Source of the DNA: Prauserella salsuginis
GTDB lineage: Bacteria > Actinomycetota > Actinomycetes > Mycobacteriales > Pseudonocardiaceae
Reading direction: 5' to 3'
DNA: 64,000 nt
Assembly (NCBI RefSeq): GCF_024648885.1
Contig: NZ_JANBBF010000009.1
Location: 248,001-312,000, forward strand
Position numbers and translations under genes: made by a program. Shown piece by piece: positions 55,478-64,000 of this stretch (positions are counted from its first letter, which is position 1; each line of letters begins with the position of its first letter). Under the pieces are notes generated by a model that was given only the letters and a program-made list of their open reading frames with translations, did not search any database and had not been told where the DNA came from.

Positions 55478-57175
55478 ATGGTTGACGAGGTGTTGCTCGA
55501 CGCGGGGGTGGTCACACGGTGTCGTCGGCGGGTGCATCTCGACAACGACCCCACGATGGCCGGGACGCCGCTGGCGCCGCCGGATCCCTCGGCCGAACAG
55601 CGGATCGCCGATGCGGAAGCGCACCGCGCCGACATCGCGGAGCGACTACAGGCCGCCATCGCCCCGGTGGGTGATGACGAGGATCCGGTCACCGGGCTGG
55701 GGCCCGCCGAGGACAGTTCGGCGGCCACCTGGACCGTCATTCCCGCCGAGCTTTCTCCTGCGGAACGTGCAGGGCTCACCCTCACCGCCCTCGAAGAGGG
55801 AGTCGGCTACATCTGGGGCGGACTGTTGCCGCGCGACCGCGAGGCGGGACGCCGCGGTGGTATCCAGTTGCTCGTTCGGTCGGTCGACGGCTACGTGCCG
55901 GTCCTTGTGGTGCGTCACCGCATCACGGATCCGGGGGAGGGTGCTCGGACGACCGAGCTGACGGATCTCGACCCGGCCAACGCTTCGACGGACCCGGATC
56001 GGAAGGTGCGATCGCACCCTCGCGATCAGTTGAGGCTGGCTCACACCTATCGGCTTCTGCAGGCAGCCGGGTTCGCCGAGCCGGATCGCGCGGTCGGCGG
56101 AGTGATCGGGCTCGATGCCGACGTGGTGCTCTGGCATGACCTGGAGGCCGGAACATGGCCGGGTGGGCGGACCGCGCTCCAGGAATACGACAGTCGGTTC
56201 GCCGACCGGCTCGCCGTCGCACGTGCCGCGGCCGCGGGCGAGGAGCCGTTGGCCGAACCGTCTCGGGTCCTCGAATGCAAGGGCTGCCCATGGTGGCCGA
56301 CGTGCGAGGCGGAGCTCACCAGGGTTCGGGACGTCAGCCTGGTCGTACGGGGCGAGGACGCGATGGAGCTGCGCCGCGCCGGCATCGCGACGGTGGACAA
56401 GCTCGCTGCGCTCGACATCCATGACGAGCCGCCGATCCAGTGGACGGGCGTGTCGTTCTCGGACGCCGTGTCGTTGGCCAAGGCGTGGCTCGCGGATCTG
56501 ACGATGGTGCGGCGGGTGCCCGACGTGACCGTGCCGCGTGGTGACGTCGAGGTTGATATCGACATGGAGAGCTTCGGCGACTCCGGGGCGTATCTGTGGG
56601 GTTGTCTGCTGACCGGTGCCGATGTCGGCGTGGCCCGCGGCTATCACGCGTTCGCCACGTGGGAGCCGTTGCCGACCGATGATGAGGCGCGGTCGTTCGC
56701 CGCGTTCTGGGCGTGGTTGACGGACGTACGTGAGCGCACTGCAGCAGCCGGACTGCAGTTCCGTGCGTACTGCTACAACGCGTTGGCCGAGAACCGTTGG
56801 TTGTACGCGTCGGCGGAGCGGTTCTCCGGGTTCCGCGGCGTGCCGACGACGGCTGACGTGCGGGCCTTCGTCGACTCCGACGAGTGGGTGGATCTGTTTC
56901 GAAGTGTTTCCGATCAGTTCCTGTGCTCGCATGGCAAGGGCCTCAAGGTGGTTGCGCCGGTGGCGGGCTTCGCCTGGCGAGACGCGGAAGCGGGAGGCGA
57001 AGCCTCGATGCGGTGGTACCGCGACGCCGTCGGTATGGACGATGCGGAACCCGACGTGGCACAGCGCGCTCGGTTGCTCCAGTACAACGAGGACGATGTG
57101 CTCGCCACGCATGCCCTCCGCGTCTGGATCAGTGAACGCGCCATGACCGAGGTGCCGTTCATGGAGGACTTGTGA
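55478..57175 (+). CDS. TM0106-type RecB-like putative nuclease
   Basis: Encodes 565 residues. The N-terminal half resembles the RecB/Cas4-like nuclease part of the TM0106 family, with a Cys cluster ECKGCPWWPTCEAEL (about 277-291) suited to an Fe-S site. The C-terminal half is RNase H-like: VDIDMESFGDSGAYLWG carries a DxE exonuclease motif and YNEDDVLATHALRVWI the last Asp motif. It probably processes DNA or RNA; the biological role is unknown. The ATG at 55478 is chosen over a GTG at 55448 because of the leaderless-type promoter. Its end overlaps the HNH gene by 17 nt. Confidence 0.88.
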   Translation: MVDEVLLDAGVVTRCRRRVHLDNDPTMAGTPLAPPDPSAEQRIADAEAHRADIAERLQAAIAPVGDDEDPVTGLGPAEDSSAATWTVIPAELSPAERAGLTLTALEEGVGYIWGGLLPRDREAGRRGGIQLLVRSVDGYVPVLVVRHRITDPGEGARTTELTDLDPANASTDPDRKVRSHPRDQLRLAHTYRLLQAAGFAEPDRAVGGVIGLDADVVLWHDLEAGTWPGGRTALQEYDSRFADRLAVARAAAAGEEPLAEPSRVLECKGCPWWPTCEAELTRVRDVSLVVRGEDAMELRRAGIATVDKLAALDIHDEPPIQWTGVSFSDAVSLAKAWLADLTMVRRVPDVTVPRGDVEVDIDMESFGDSGAYLWGCLLTGADVGVARGYHAFATWEPLPTDDEARSFAAFWAWLTDVRERTAAAGLQFRAYCYNALAENRWLYASAERFSGFRGVPTTADVRAFVDSDEWVDLFRSVSDQFLCSHGKGLKVVAPVAGFAWRDAEAGGEASMRWYRDAVGMDDAEPDVAQRARLLQYNEDDVLATHALRVWISERAMTEVPFMEDL

Positions 57176-58478
57176 CGTTCGACTTGCGCTGAGCGCCGTC
57201 TTGTCTTCCATTGCCGCGGTTTTCGGTTGTGTGCCGGCTGCTTCGGCTCCGATTGCGGCGGTTTCCGCGGCGCCGACGCCGTTTCCGTTCCGCAAGCTTC
57301 CGTCCATCCGCTGCGTTCTCGGCGTGGGCTGGTTCGCCGGTTCGGACGGTTCCCTCCGGTGTCGTGACGCGGAGTGAGCCGTCGGCCTCGAGTTCGAACA
57401 ACCAGTTGGGCGTGTGCTTGACGAGGTGGTGTCGTCGACATAGTCCGATCAAGTTCGACGCGCAGGTCGGTCCATCGCACCCGTGGGTGCGTACATGGTC
57501 GAGGTCGGTGAACTCGGCCGGTCGATGGCACCCAGGAAATCGGCATTCCCTGTCGCGTACTTTCACGTAGTCCGCGGTCACAGCCGGCGGCCGGTAGCGT
57601 TCCCTTCCGACGTCCAATGGGGCACCCGTCTGTGGGTCGGTGATGATTCTCCGCCAGGTGGATTTCCGATCGGTAGCTATTTGCCGCGCCACTTCAGCGG
57701 GTACGGGTCCGTGTCCGGAAAGATGTGCCGGGTTGTTGCGGATGCGGGCGAGCGTCTCGAAATCGATGTGCACGTAGACCTCCGCCTTGCCGCTTTCGGC
57801 GCTTGCCGGGAACGTGGCGGACGACCTGCCATGGTCGTTGTCCGCACGCTTTCCGCAGGAGCAGTCCGCCAGGAGGTGGTCTGCCAGCGCGTCGGCTCGC
57901 AGCTGGTCCGTCGTCCGGCTTTCGCCGTGGGTGCGCATTGCGCGAGCTCGGTGATCGATCCGTGCGTACACGGCCGATGCTTGTTCCGCCGGCAGATAGG
58001 CGGACACGGTCGCCATCGCGTCTTCGCGATGCCGCAGAGTCACTTTTCGATCAGCACGTCGTTGACGTGCGCGTGCTGCCGTGCCATCGGGGTCCACTCG
58101 GTGTACGGCTCTGTAGGCACACCGGCGGATGGAATCGGCACTGCGAACCTTGAGCTTGTCGGCGACGAGCTGGTCCACCTCTGCGGCGTTCGTGTCGGAC
58201 AGCGGACGCGTTTGATGGACCACTTTGGACGCTTTACGTAGGTCGATGTCGCCGCGTGCGAGGACGCTCAACGTTTCGGGCAGACGTGAGGTCAGCTGGC
58301 GGGCCCACTCGAGCTCCCGTCGGACGACGTGTTCCGACTCTCCTAGGCCGAGCGCCAGCTCGGCGGTCACATCGACGGTGTGTTCGTGTTGTACCGAATA
58401 CTCGGCGAGTGCTCTCAGGTACGCCGCCTGTGCCTGACCGATTCGACGCCAGGCGTGTACGACATCGGTGATTTCCAT
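57159..58478 (-). CDS. DUF222 / HNH endonuclease (13E12-repeat-type)
   Basis: Encodes 439 residues. A helical DUF222 region (about 15-290) is followed by an HNH nuclease motif CRFPGCHRPAEFTDLDHVRTHGCDGPTCASNLIGLCRRHHLVKH, with paired Cys, the catalytic His of LDH and HH. The C-terminus is strongly basic (RKRRRRRGNRRNRSR). This family is the M. tuberculosis 13E12 repeat family, multicopy and mobile-like in many actinobacteria. GAGGGGGA lies just before the ATG at 58478. The 17-nt tail overlap with the nuclease is unusual. Confidence 0.9.
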   Translation of the reverse strand: MEITDVVHAWRRIGQAQAAYLRALAEYSVQHEHTVDVTAELALGLGESEHVVRRELEWARQLTSRLPETLSVLARGDIDLRKASKVVHQTRPLSDTNAAEVDQLVADKLKVRSADSIRRCAYRAVHRVDPDGTAARARQRRADRKVTLRHREDAMATVSAYLPAEQASAVYARIDHRARAMRTHGESRTTDQLRADALADHLLADCSCGKRADNDHGRSSATFPASAESGKAEVYVHIDFETLARIRNNPAHLSGHGPVPAEVARQIATDRKSTWRRIITDPQTGAPLDVGRERYRPPAVTADYVKVRDRECRFPGCHRPAEFTDLDHVRTHGCDGPTCASNLIGLCRRHHLVKHTPNWLFELEADGSLRVTTPEGTVRTGEPAHAENAADGRKLAERKRRRRRGNRRNRSRSSRHTTENRGNGRQDGAQRKSNVTSPP

Positions 58479-58598
58479 CGATCCCCCTCGGCTCGTGGTC
58501 GGCAACTTTACACACGAATCAAGACAAGGGTCAAACCTTTGTTCGAATCACTCGATCGGGCGACAGGACGGCACGGGACCATCGTGGGACCCTTGGTC

Positions 58599-61323: not shown

Positions 61324-63111
61324 GTGTCTGCTGCGAATCCTTCCGCGTTCACCACCAGGCCCGAACTCGCCGGAACTCACGGCATGGTCGCGTCGACGCA
61401 CTGGCTGGCGTCAGCGTCGGGCATGGCCGTGCTCGAGGACGGCGGAAATGCGTTCGACGCCGCAGTTGCCGCCGGGTTCGTCCTCCAGGTGGCCGAGCCG
61501 CACCTGAACGGACCCGGTGGGCAGGTGCCCGCAATCTTTGCGCCTGCCGGCGGGGGTCCGCGCGTGCTGTGCGGCCAGGGAGGGGCGCCCGCAGCGGCCA
61601 CGATCGGTCATTTCGACGACCTCGGTCTGAAGTTGATCCCTGGCAGTGGTCTGCTGCCGGCCACCGTGTCGGGCGCGTGGGATGCCTGGCTGCTGCTCCT
61701 TCGTGACTACGGCACGAAGCCGCTTCGGGACGTGCTCGGGTACGCCATCTCATACGCCTGGAACGGGATCCCTGTCCTGGGCCGGATCGCTTCCACGATC
61801 GATACGGTGTCCGACCTGTTCGCCACCCATTGGCCGACATCCGCACAGCTGTGGTTGCCGGATGGTGATACGCCGACGGTGGGTTCGCTCCACTCGAATC
61901 GCGTCCTGGCCCGAACCTGGCAGCGGTTGCTCGGCGAGGCCGAAACAGTGTCGGGTCGGGAGGAACAGATCGATGCCGCCCGGCGGGCCTGGGCACAGGG
62001 CTTCGTCGCCGAGGCCGTCGACGCCTTCAGTCGTACGGCGTTCCGGGACGATTCCGGACGTGATCACGCCGGCCTGCTCACCGGAGACGATCTGGCGTCC
62101 TGGGAAGCGTCCTATGAGGACGCGATCGTCGCAGATTTCGGCGAATGGAGCCTGGTCAAATGCGGTGCGTGGACGCAGGGACCGACCCTCGTGCAGCAGC
62201 TGCGCATCCTCGAGGAACTCGATCTGTCGTATGTGGATGGTAAGCCGACGGCGCGCACGATCCACCTCGCCACCGAGGCGGCGAAGCTGGCCTTCGCCGA
62301 CCGCGAAGCCTGGTACGGCGACACCGGTGACGTTCCGATCGAGCGCCTGCTTTCGCGCGAGTATGCCGCGCAGCGCCGGGCGCTGATCGGTGATGAGGCG
62401 AGCGATCGGCTGCGCCCCGGGGGTGACGACGCCCGTATGCCGAAAATGATCGAGCGTACGCGTAATACGGCTGCGGGTTCGGGAGCGATCGGCGAACCCA
62501 CCGTCGAACCACAGGGACGAACCCGTGGCGACACGGTGCACATCGACGTTGTCGACGCCGCGGGCAACATCGTGTCCGCCACGCCGTCCGGCGGCTGGCT
62601 GCAGTCCTCGCCCACGATTCCCGAGTTGGGCTTCTGTCTGGACTCGCGGGCCCAGATGTTCTGGCTCGAAGACGGTTTGCCCAACTCGCTGGCGCCGGGG
62701 AAACGGCCGCGGATCACGCTTTCACCGTCCATGGCGTTGCGCGACGGCGAACCGACGCTCGCGTTCGGCACACCCGGCGGGGATCAGCAGGACCAGTGGC
62801 AGCTCTGCTTCTGGCTTGCACACGTCGGTGCCGGGCTGAACCTGCAGGAGTCGATCGATGCACCGGCATGGCACACGACGGCGTTCCCGAGTTCGTTCTA
62901 CCCGAGGGCGTGGACGCCGAAGGAGCTCGTCGTCGAATCGCGCGTGGGAGAAGGAGTGCTCGCCGAGCTGTCCGATCGTGGGCACGACGTGGTTGATGCC
63001 GGACCGTGGGCATTGGGACGTCTTTCGGCGGTGTCGCGTGATCCGAACGGCGGAATCCTTCGTGCGGCGGCGAATGCGCGCGGTATGCAGGGTTACGCCG
63101 TCGGCCGCTGA
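61324..63111 (+). CDS. Gamma-glutamyltransferase family protein
   Basis: Encodes a 595-residue N-terminal-nucleophile hydrolase of the GGT family. HGMVASTHWLASASGMAVLEDGGNAFDAAVAAGFVLQVAEPHLNGPGG is the typical N-terminal block, and Thr404 in TRGDTVHIDVVDAAGN is the expected self-cleavage nucleophile. FGTPGGDQQDQWQLCFWLAHVGAGLNLQESIDAPAWHT is the C-terminal block. No export signal is evident, so it may act in the cytoplasm, more like GGT-like acylases than classical periplasmic GGT. The substrate is unknown. Confidence 0.88.
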   Translation: MSAANPSAFTTRPELAGTHGMVASTHWLASASGMAVLEDGGNAFDAAVAAGFVLQVAEPHLNGPGGQVPAIFAPAGGGPRVLCGQGGAPAAATIGHFDDLGLKLIPGSGLLPATVSGAWDAWLLLLRDYGTKPLRDVLGYAISYAWNGIPVLGRIASTIDTVSDLFATHWPTSAQLWLPDGDTPTVGSLHSNRVLARTWQRLLGEAETVSGREEQIDAARRAWAQGFVAEAVDAFSRTAFRDDSGRDHAGLLTGDDLASWEASYEDAIVADFGEWSLVKCGAWTQGPTLVQQLRILEELDLSYVDGKPTARTIHLATEAAKLAFADREAWYGDTGDVPIERLLSREYAAQRRALIGDEASDRLRPGGDDARMPKMIERTRNTAAGSGAIGEPTVEPQGRTRGDTVHIDVVDAAGNIVSATPSGGWLQSSPTIPELGFCLDSRAQMFWLEDGLPNSLAPGKRPRITLSPSMALRDGEPTLAFGTPGGDQQDQWQLCFWLAHVGAGLNLQESIDAPAWHTTAFPSSFYPRAWTPKELVVESRVGEGVLAELSDRGHDVVDAGPWALGRLSAVSRDPNGGILRAAANARGMQGYAVGR

Positions 63112-63164: not shown

Positions 63165-63170
63165 GAGATG

Positions 63171-64000
63171 ATGCTCTCGTGGGGGTCGGAGCTCGTCGAT
63201 TCCGGTGTAGCGGTGGTATCGCACTTTGCCGGTATCGCCGATCTGCTCGGTGCGATCGTCGGTGTGCTCAGCGGTGCCGCGTCCGCTGTGCTGTACATGC
63301 TGGCGCGGCGGAACAAGGCGCGGGTCATGGCGATTCACGTCGGCTGGCAGATCGCGCACGACGCAGGCGAGACCGGCGCGGTTGTCTACAATGGATCGAA
63401 CGTGCCGTTGCAGCAACTGGTCGTCACGGTGGTCTGCGGAGCTCGCCGCCGAACGGCTCGCCGCGAGATCGCGGTACTGAGGCCGCAGGACACCCATCTG
63501 TGGCCCAGCGGTGATGTACACGACGCGCTCGTCTCCGATGAACACGAAACCGACCAGCACAAAGTCCAGGTGGTGTTCCGCAGCGGCCGCGAGTGCTGGC
63601 TCCGCGACGAACGCAGCGCCGAACGGATCCGTTCCCTCGTGCTGTGGACGGAACGGACGATGGCGGAACCACTGAAGCGGTACTTTCGCCGTGACGGCCA
63701 CTTCCGCAAGAACTACTCCGTCCGAATCGAGGTTGAATCCTTCGACCGAACCGAGACCTTGGAGACAGCGTTCGGCCAGGTCGCGTCGACCGGACACCCA
63801 CCGGCCGGCTACCGCATACCGGACGTCGTCGCCGGCCCGCACGACTGGCTCGGCCGCGCCGTCGCCGAGGACTGGGTCGAACAGCCACCGCCGACCGTCG
63901 AGGACCGTGCGGGTATGTCATCCGTCGCGGTGGACGCGCTCAGTCACGGCGACCCGATGTATGCGGTGCCGTACGCCATGGACAGCGTCGCGTTGATCCG
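63171..64000 (+). CDS. Membrane-anchored protein fused to a solute-binding-protein-like domain (3' end missing)
   Basis: The frame from ATG 63171 (or 63168) is open to the window end, 276 full codons. One hydrophobic helix (about residues 20-44) is followed by ARRNKAR, so the positive-inside rule places what follows in the cytoplasm. Residues about 60-148 look like a beta-sandwich (VVYNGSNVPLQQLVVTV, LRPQDTHLWPSGD, VVFRSGRECWLRD). From about 154 the sequence follows family 1 solute-binding proteins: SLVLWTERTMAEPLKRYF, VRIEVESFD, then IPDVVAGPHDWLGRAVAEDW and MYAVPYAMDSVALI, which parallel maltose-binding protein. No signal peptide or lipobox is seen. Such a fusion is unusual; a sensor or effector role is only a guess. 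Confidence 0.7.
   Translation, partial: MLSWGSELVDSGVAVVSHFAGIADLLGAIVGVLSGAASAVLYMLARRNKARVMAIHVGWQIAHDAGETGAVVYNGSNVPLQQLVVTVVCGARRRTARREIAVLRPQDTHLWPSGDVHDALVSDEHETDQHKVQVVFRSGRECWLRDERSAERIRSLVLWTERTMAEPLKRYFRRDGHFRKNYSVRIEVESFDRTETLETAFGQVASTGHPPAGYRIPDVVAGPHDWLGRAVAEDWVEQPPPTVEDRAGMSSVAVDALSHGDPMYAVPYAMDSVALI

Follow-up and report, generated by a model that had tools for sequence, protein, structure and literature searches.

The last gene of the window (the whole stretch of 64,000 nucleotides analysed here) encodes a single-pass membrane protein. In it a complete MalE-type solute-binding domain follows a transmembrane helix and an Ig-like beta domain, and the binding domain is predicted to be cytoplasmic. 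The architecture of the window protein is confirmed by sequence comparison; it is not a product of chance, since 11 intact relatives share it and dN/dS is between 0.16 and 0.30. The best explanation, held at about even confidence, is that the protein goes back to a captured mal operon and is now a membrane-tethered, cytosol-facing MalE-like receptor or trap for a sugar or sugar derivative.

The fused gene and its product

The gene starts at an ATG at window position 63168 on the forward strand, and its reading frame is open at the window end (63168..64000, encoding residues 1-277). In the same assembly it stops 811 bases beyond that end (L007:3168-4811), giving a product of 547 residues. Extension of the contig past 64000, proposed in the initial annotation, thus recovered the full gene with its stop at L007:4811. 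The same annotation had placed the start at 63171, which is the second ATG; the open reading frame itself stands. The frame is open for just two codons ahead of the first ATG, neither of them a start codon, so a signal peptide hidden upstream is excluded; the absence of a signal peptide, as first claimed, holds because the window gene has no room for one upstream. A promoter scan of L007:3050-5000 found none.

The proposed order of helix, beta domain and MBP-like domain is borne out by sequence comparison. A short N-terminal tail (63168..63242), which has no Lys or Arg and is predicted to lie outside, precedes the single transmembrane helix LLGAIVGVLSGAASAVLYMLA (residues 26-46; 63243..63305; mean hydropathy 2.04). 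This is the sole strong membrane segment; the best other 19-residue stretch has a hydropathy of 1.31. The basic flank RRNKAR (residues 47-52; 63306..63323), predicted to be cytoplasmic, leads to the putative Ig-like beta domain (residues about 58-148; 63339..63611), recognised by conserved N...S, F and W.R positions and by profile comparisons, with a low-confidence model. The MalE-type domain occupies 63630..64000 (residues about 155-277) and runs to about residue 545 beyond the window. All of these features are on the forward strand. AlphaFold, given a four-row alignment, returned a mean pLDDT of 34 for the whole protein and 44 for the beta domain alone; since these models are low-confidence, the fold is read from sequence alone.

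A complete MalE-type domain

The window protein matches the Pfam family SBP_bac_8 (1.8e-8; 35 bits against a cut-off of 27) and falls just under the cut-off for SBP_bac_1 (24.8 bits against 26). Thermotoga MalE2 is matched at 3.1e-19 over residues 165-528, and E. coli MBP (1mpb) at about 6e-38 over residues 155-537 when the profile of 11 relatives is used. Profile and sequence comparison together delimit a complete MalE-type domain at residues about 155-545, and the protein belongs to the MalE (family 1) solute-binding domain family over the full domain length. It scores 70 bits against the NCBIfam equivalog for maltodextrin binders, NF007011, well short of the cut-off of 291. Every Pfam and NCBIfam match of the Prauserella protein is to an extracellular or ABC-transporter solute-binding model. 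By prediction, the fused proteins lack the signal peptide or lipobox and the extracytoplasmic location of exported solute-binding proteins. On these comparisons, the fused protein is a member of the solute-binding domain family, and is classed apart from the exported, importer-type MalE.

Orientation in the membrane

The charge pattern around the helix is the same in all intact proteins. In 11 of 11, the 15 residues before the helix hold 0-1 Lys or Arg and carry a net negative charge, and the 15 residues after it hold 3-8 Lys or Arg. Under the positive-inside rule, a basic flank marks the cytoplasmic side; the tail is therefore predicted to lie outside, and the Ig-like and solute-binding domains inside. 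A cytoplasmic solute-binding domain is thus the predicted arrangement, and the inward orientation first proposed for the window protein extends to its 11 intact homologues. In 8 of the 11 the start used has no ATG, GTG or TTG in open frame ahead of it; G750, G004 and G870 have alternatives, and their start codons were chosen by homology.

Composition differs as well. Arg makes up 6.5-10.3% of the solute-binding part in the fused proteins, against 0.8-4.4% in 39 ordinary relatives. The gap is narrower in a same-genome control, where Arg makes up 10.1% of this part of the window protein, against 4.3-6.4% in six exported solute-binding proteins. Several rows of the same-genome lipobox listing were chance matches to proteins that are not solute-binding proteins, and these were left uncounted. 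A lipobox was seen by eye in 37 of the 39 ordinary relatives; for the other two (L090, L092) the stretch examined stops short of it. Cys content was rejected as proof of a cytoplasmic location, as exported solute-binding proteins of the same genome also carry 2 further Cys.

The TM plus Ig-like module

The beta domain of the window protein has no Pfam or PHROGs match. Its homologue is an Ig-like module that occurs in other actinobacterial proteins. Between the two fused subgroups the N-terminal halves are homologous, and they share with the TM plus Ig-like family (2.4e-6; hhalign 90%, 1.7e-6) the helix, the basic C-terminal flank and a beta domain with the N...S, F and W.R positions. Other actinobacteria encode the N-terminal module in free-standing TM plus Ig-like proteins, of which some match phrog_22307. 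The examples read stop shortly beyond the Ig domain and have no solute-binding domain, whereas the fused proteins have one.

Free-standing TM plus Ig-like membrane proteins are found at L077, L078, L080, L081 and L098:5869-6513. One, on a Micromonospora plasmid, comes after an integrase gene and has a roadblock/DUF742/ATP-binding cluster beside it. By eye, the L080 gene follows an open reading frame resembling a tape-measure protein, and the L081 gene adjoins one resembling an integrase. Phages were considered as a source of the module and rejected: matches were absent or weak, and none was in viral contigs.

Distribution

A full-length profile matched 13 of 390 Pseudonocardiaceae genomes at E values up to 1e-10. 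Eleven of these matches have the intact architecture and are spread over five genera; the other two are broken. The initial annotation had suggested looking for the same architecture in other actinobacteria, and these 11 copies are the outcome. None of the 13 looks like an ordinary MalE (the G840 piece is without its N-terminal half).

Four intact copies are in Prauserella, from seven genomes of that genus. Full-length identity to the window protein is 89% in Prauserella alba, 75% in P. halophila and 54% in P. aidingensis. G750 and G759 (genus g16) and G798 and G808 (g40) are 47-49% identical to it, and the divergent intact cousins G748 (g16), G870 (g8) and G981 (g226) are 26-29% identical. 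The P. aidingensis gene (L020) is only 54% identical and does not share the neighbourhood of the other three Prauserella copies; both points suggest either transfer or an old paralogue.

Of the broken copies, that of G983 is frameshifted. In G840 the C-terminal part of the solute-binding domain is joined in frame to a TPR-CHAT open reading frame. The joined frame (L074:6519-9659) is 1046 amino acids long and has a TPR-like N-terminal part (by eye), a CHAT domain and then the solute-binding C-terminal part. It resembles the outcome of a deletion between two genes; with 6% contamination in this assembly, it may also be an artefact.

Searches were also made beyond the family. Among 394 sampled genomes of the class, 86 had solute-binding matches; 29 further loci, taken from part of these, all have a lipoprotein signal by eye. 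In a phylum sample of 276 genomes, no fused protein was found outside Pseudonocardiaceae among the matches listed. There, 26 of 27 listed full-profile matches start at position 134 or later, and the remaining one is G870; judged by where they start, the late matches are ordinary solute-binding proteins or pieces of them. The family, class and phylum searches scored 3-5 candidates per genome, and misses are possible. A single-sequence search with the N-terminal part matched only Prauserella (3 of 298 genomes). Two extra hits near E 0.008 of a narrow N-terminal profile were spurious on reading, its only other match being the window's own genome. Restriction of the fused architecture to one family holds as sampled.

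The binding pocket

The 11 fused proteins were aligned with 39 ordinary MalE proteins. Left out of the pocket counts, the tree and the composition figures were L013 and L085, which are copies of L025, and L083, a Klebsiella solute-binding protein of another subfamily. By MBP numbering applied to the alignments with Thermotoga MalE2 and E. coli MBP, the pocket columns are taken to correspond to Glu111, Trp230 and Trp340 of E. coli MBP.

Part of the cleft is kept. In the HDW motif (GPHDW in the window protein, residues 223-227; 63834..63848, forward strand, as aligned with ordinary MalE) the Asp is present in 10 of 11 fused proteins and the Trp in all 11; the Asp is present in 39/39 ordinary proteins. 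Asp324, Trp512 and a Tyr or Phe at 326 are kept in 11/11. Other positions have changed in a uniform manner. The pocket Glu, found in 38/39 ordinary proteins, is Asp in every fused protein (Asp272 in the window protein; 63981..63983, forward strand). Trp329 is present in all 11, where 26 of 39 ordinary proteins have Tyr. The Gly-Pro-Trp of all 39 ordinary proteins occurs in none of the fused ones, and the site of the lost Trp holds Arg (5), Leu (2), Asp (2), Val (1) or Gly (1). In P. halophila (L019 / L011) the otherwise constant pocket Asp226 is Gly.

A cleft that is kept but altered in the same way throughout points to a different ligand more than to mere decay. Against this stand the variable Trp site and the missing Asp226 of P. 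halophila; sugar binding may be gone. Selection has acted on the gene throughout: dN/dS over the gene in five pairs is 0.16, 0.30, 0.25, 0.16 and 0.24, with similar values for the Ig and solute-binding parts, and the fused gene is under purifying selection in both domains.

A new class of ligand would fit the Arg at the sugar-stacking Trp site in 5/11 and the uniform change of pocket Glu to Asp. MalE may have been turned into a receptor that is anchored in the membrane and recognises a sugar inside the cell, possibly one that is phosphorylated or nucleotide-activated, with the TM plus Ig-like part for signalling; this is put forward tentatively. That the domain no longer binds small molecules, and acts instead as a scaffold, structural or protein-binding, on the cytoplasmic side of the membrane, is rather unlikely. 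The loss of the Gly-Pro-Trp loop throughout, the freely varying Trp230 site and the change of Asp226 to Gly in one species are what such a scaffold would permit, but D272, D324, W329 and W512 are constant in 11/11 and position 326 is always Tyr or Phe, which exceeds the needs of a bare scaffold.

Origin from a mal operon

When 11 fused and 39 ordinary domains are placed in a maximum-likelihood tree, a branch supported at 100/99 separates the fused domains from the rest, and thus one fusion event suffices. G748 forms a long branch in this tree.

One intact locus retains an operon-like neighbourhood. In G870 a GH13 gene starts 10 bases after the stop of the fused gene, with the ribosome-site-like sequence GAGAAAGG. 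The GH13 gene directly behind the broken G840 gene encodes a product 80% identical to that of G870. The catalytic domain begins at residue 15 in the G870 enzyme (13-15 across the G870 and G840 enzymes). Relatives of these enzymes, 43-53% identical, are encoded within 1.5 kb of a malE match in 13 of the 29 ordinary loci, and one also adjoins malE-malF in Nonomuraea. The arrangement of solute-binding and GH13 genes is what a mal operon without its permeases would look like.

No such permeases were found. A MalF query at an E value of 0.01 gave no MalF-like gene in the 13 loci and recovered both positive controls, L082 (the query's own locus) and L014, in keeping with the initial remark that no ABC permease genes precede the window gene. 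With MalF as the query, the permease gene expected of a MalEFGK importer was thus not found in these loci. In eight carrier genomes, one of them with a broken copy, the matches listed for the same query are generic permeases, and none of those listed begins before position 184 of 522.

The GH13 genes raise the alternative that the protein is a substrate-holding partner of an intracellular glucosidase, keeping imported alpha-glucosides at the membrane and handing them to the enzyme. The two loci with GH13 directly behind, and the little space for a signal peptide ahead of the catalytic domain, are consistent with it. GH13 matches are absent from the remaining 11 loci, which are each 10 to 20 kb long and include those of Prauserella, and the pocket is altered in the G870 protein too; this alternative is distinctly unlikely as an account of the fused proteins.

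Gene neighbourhoods

Upstream of the window gene is a gamma-glutamyltransferase gene (61324..63111, forward strand), which is outside the system; P. alba and P. halophila have this neighbour too. These three Prauserella loci have GGT and SnoaL-like/glyoxalase genes nearby (the families being named for the window's genome). The P. aidingensis locus has SDR, TetR and HAD genes; G750 has S41 peptidase and cytochrome bd genes; G808 has EamA and a PucR-type gene, and G798 has SDR and an ABC exporter-type gene. Conserved neighbours, which the initial annotation had hoped to list, did not emerge: among the neighbours compared (for G981, two), none recurs across lineages. As neighbours differ between lineages, the fused protein probably either works by itself or has partners encoded elsewhere.

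Two other genes of the region may be mentioned. By eye, window 57159-58505 (reverse strand) encodes an HNH-endonuclease protein of the DUF222/13E12 type. L007:9552-13328 (reverse strand) encodes 1259 amino acids, including a glycosyltransferase group 1 domain and an FkbM methyltransferase domain, and also matches Pfam GT4-conflict.

A conflict or defence sensor, responding to an intracellular molecule that is foreign or damage-related, has also been proposed. The distribution is patchy (13/390 family genomes), TPR-CHAT, NB-ARC-TPR or TPR genes lie near 3 of 5 divergent loci, and free-standing TM-Ig genes lie beside an annotated integrase and, in L081, the integrase-like frame seen by eye. PADLOC gave no match for three fused proteins, however, and the neighbours scanned in Prauserella, G750, G808 and G798 are metabolic, transport or regulatory, with no partner common across lineages. 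NB-ARC and TPR genes are common in these actinobacterial genomes, and their closeness may be due to chance. The defence setting first suggested is thus unsupported, and a sensor of this kind is very improbable. In G748 an NB-ARC plus TPR protein (L071:11001-13337), matched by a PADLOC TPR model, lies about 1.3 kb from the divergent fused gene.

Least probable is a wrong topology prediction, with the binding domain outside and serving an orphan or unlinked importer: outside is the usual working place of MalE proteins, and generic permeases match the C-terminal part of MalF in all eight genomes searched, but 11/11 charge patterns and the Arg-rich composition point inside, and the first third of MalF is uncovered by any permease among the matches listed.

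Comparison with known systems

The MalE lipoproteins of actinobacterial mal operons (PF13416/PF01547; NF007011) belong to the same domain family over its full length and share HDW, D324, the aromatic residue at 326 and W512 with the fused proteins. The fused proteins differ in having no signal peptide or lipobox and no nearby permease; they have instead the TM plus Ig-like module and a predicted cytoplasmic location, and in their pockets Glu is replaced by Asp and GPW is lost.

In a search of the open-access literature, CisA of Streptomyces coelicolor was the nearest described architecture found, compared by description. It is presented as a single-pass membrane protein with a C-terminal solute-binding-like domain (residues 310-468), proposed as a sensor and linked to a contractile injection system, with its N-terminus inside and its C-terminus outside (PMC12237407). 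The likeness, an actinobacterial single-pass protein with a C-terminal domain of this type, is one of description, and the orientation is opposite to that predicted for the fused proteins. Contractile injection genes were absent from the 20 neighbours scanned, and the fused proteins are not placed with CisA. GlnH/GlnX, together with an aspartate-specific solute-binding protein, is described as controlling PknG (PMC6069109, PMC9769921). This system resembles the present one in that a solute-binding protein is used in signalling, beyond import alone. GlnH is described as periplasmic (PMC9769921), whereas the binding domain here is fused and predicted to be cytosolic. PMC9602780 places solute-binding proteins in the extracytosolic space, and among the open-access papers found by text search no title or abstract opening described a cytosol-facing fused MalE.

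Proposed role

Under the favoured explanation of a receptor or trap, the malE gene of a maltose operon would have lost its export signal and permeases, most simply once, as the sequences, the tree and the one operon-like neighbourhood suggest. Its product would have been joined behind a TM plus Ig-like module that is elsewhere a free-standing actinobacterial membrane protein, giving a single-pass protein with the MBP-like domain on the predicted cytoplasmic side. The remodelled, partly kept cleft would most likely shut around a sugar or sugar derivative from inside the cell, and closure of the lobes would be transmitted or localised by the Ig domain and helix. The nucleotide-like ligand suggested in the initial annotation is unsupported. 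Output may instead go to a soluble enzyme; the GH13 glucosidase whose gene directly follows that of the G870 protein would be one, although this is the weaker suggestion. Counted against the favoured explanation is that a GH13 neighbour occurs in only 2 of 13 loci, one of them with a broken solute-binding gene. The role of the fused protein would be that of a receptor or trap, and not of an import component.

It should be noted for annotation that database models label the Prauserella protein as an extracellular or ABC-transporter solute-binding protein. If the favoured explanation is true, a component of sugar import can become an internal receptor, and the fused protein would be a ready-made scaffold for an intracellular sugar sensor.
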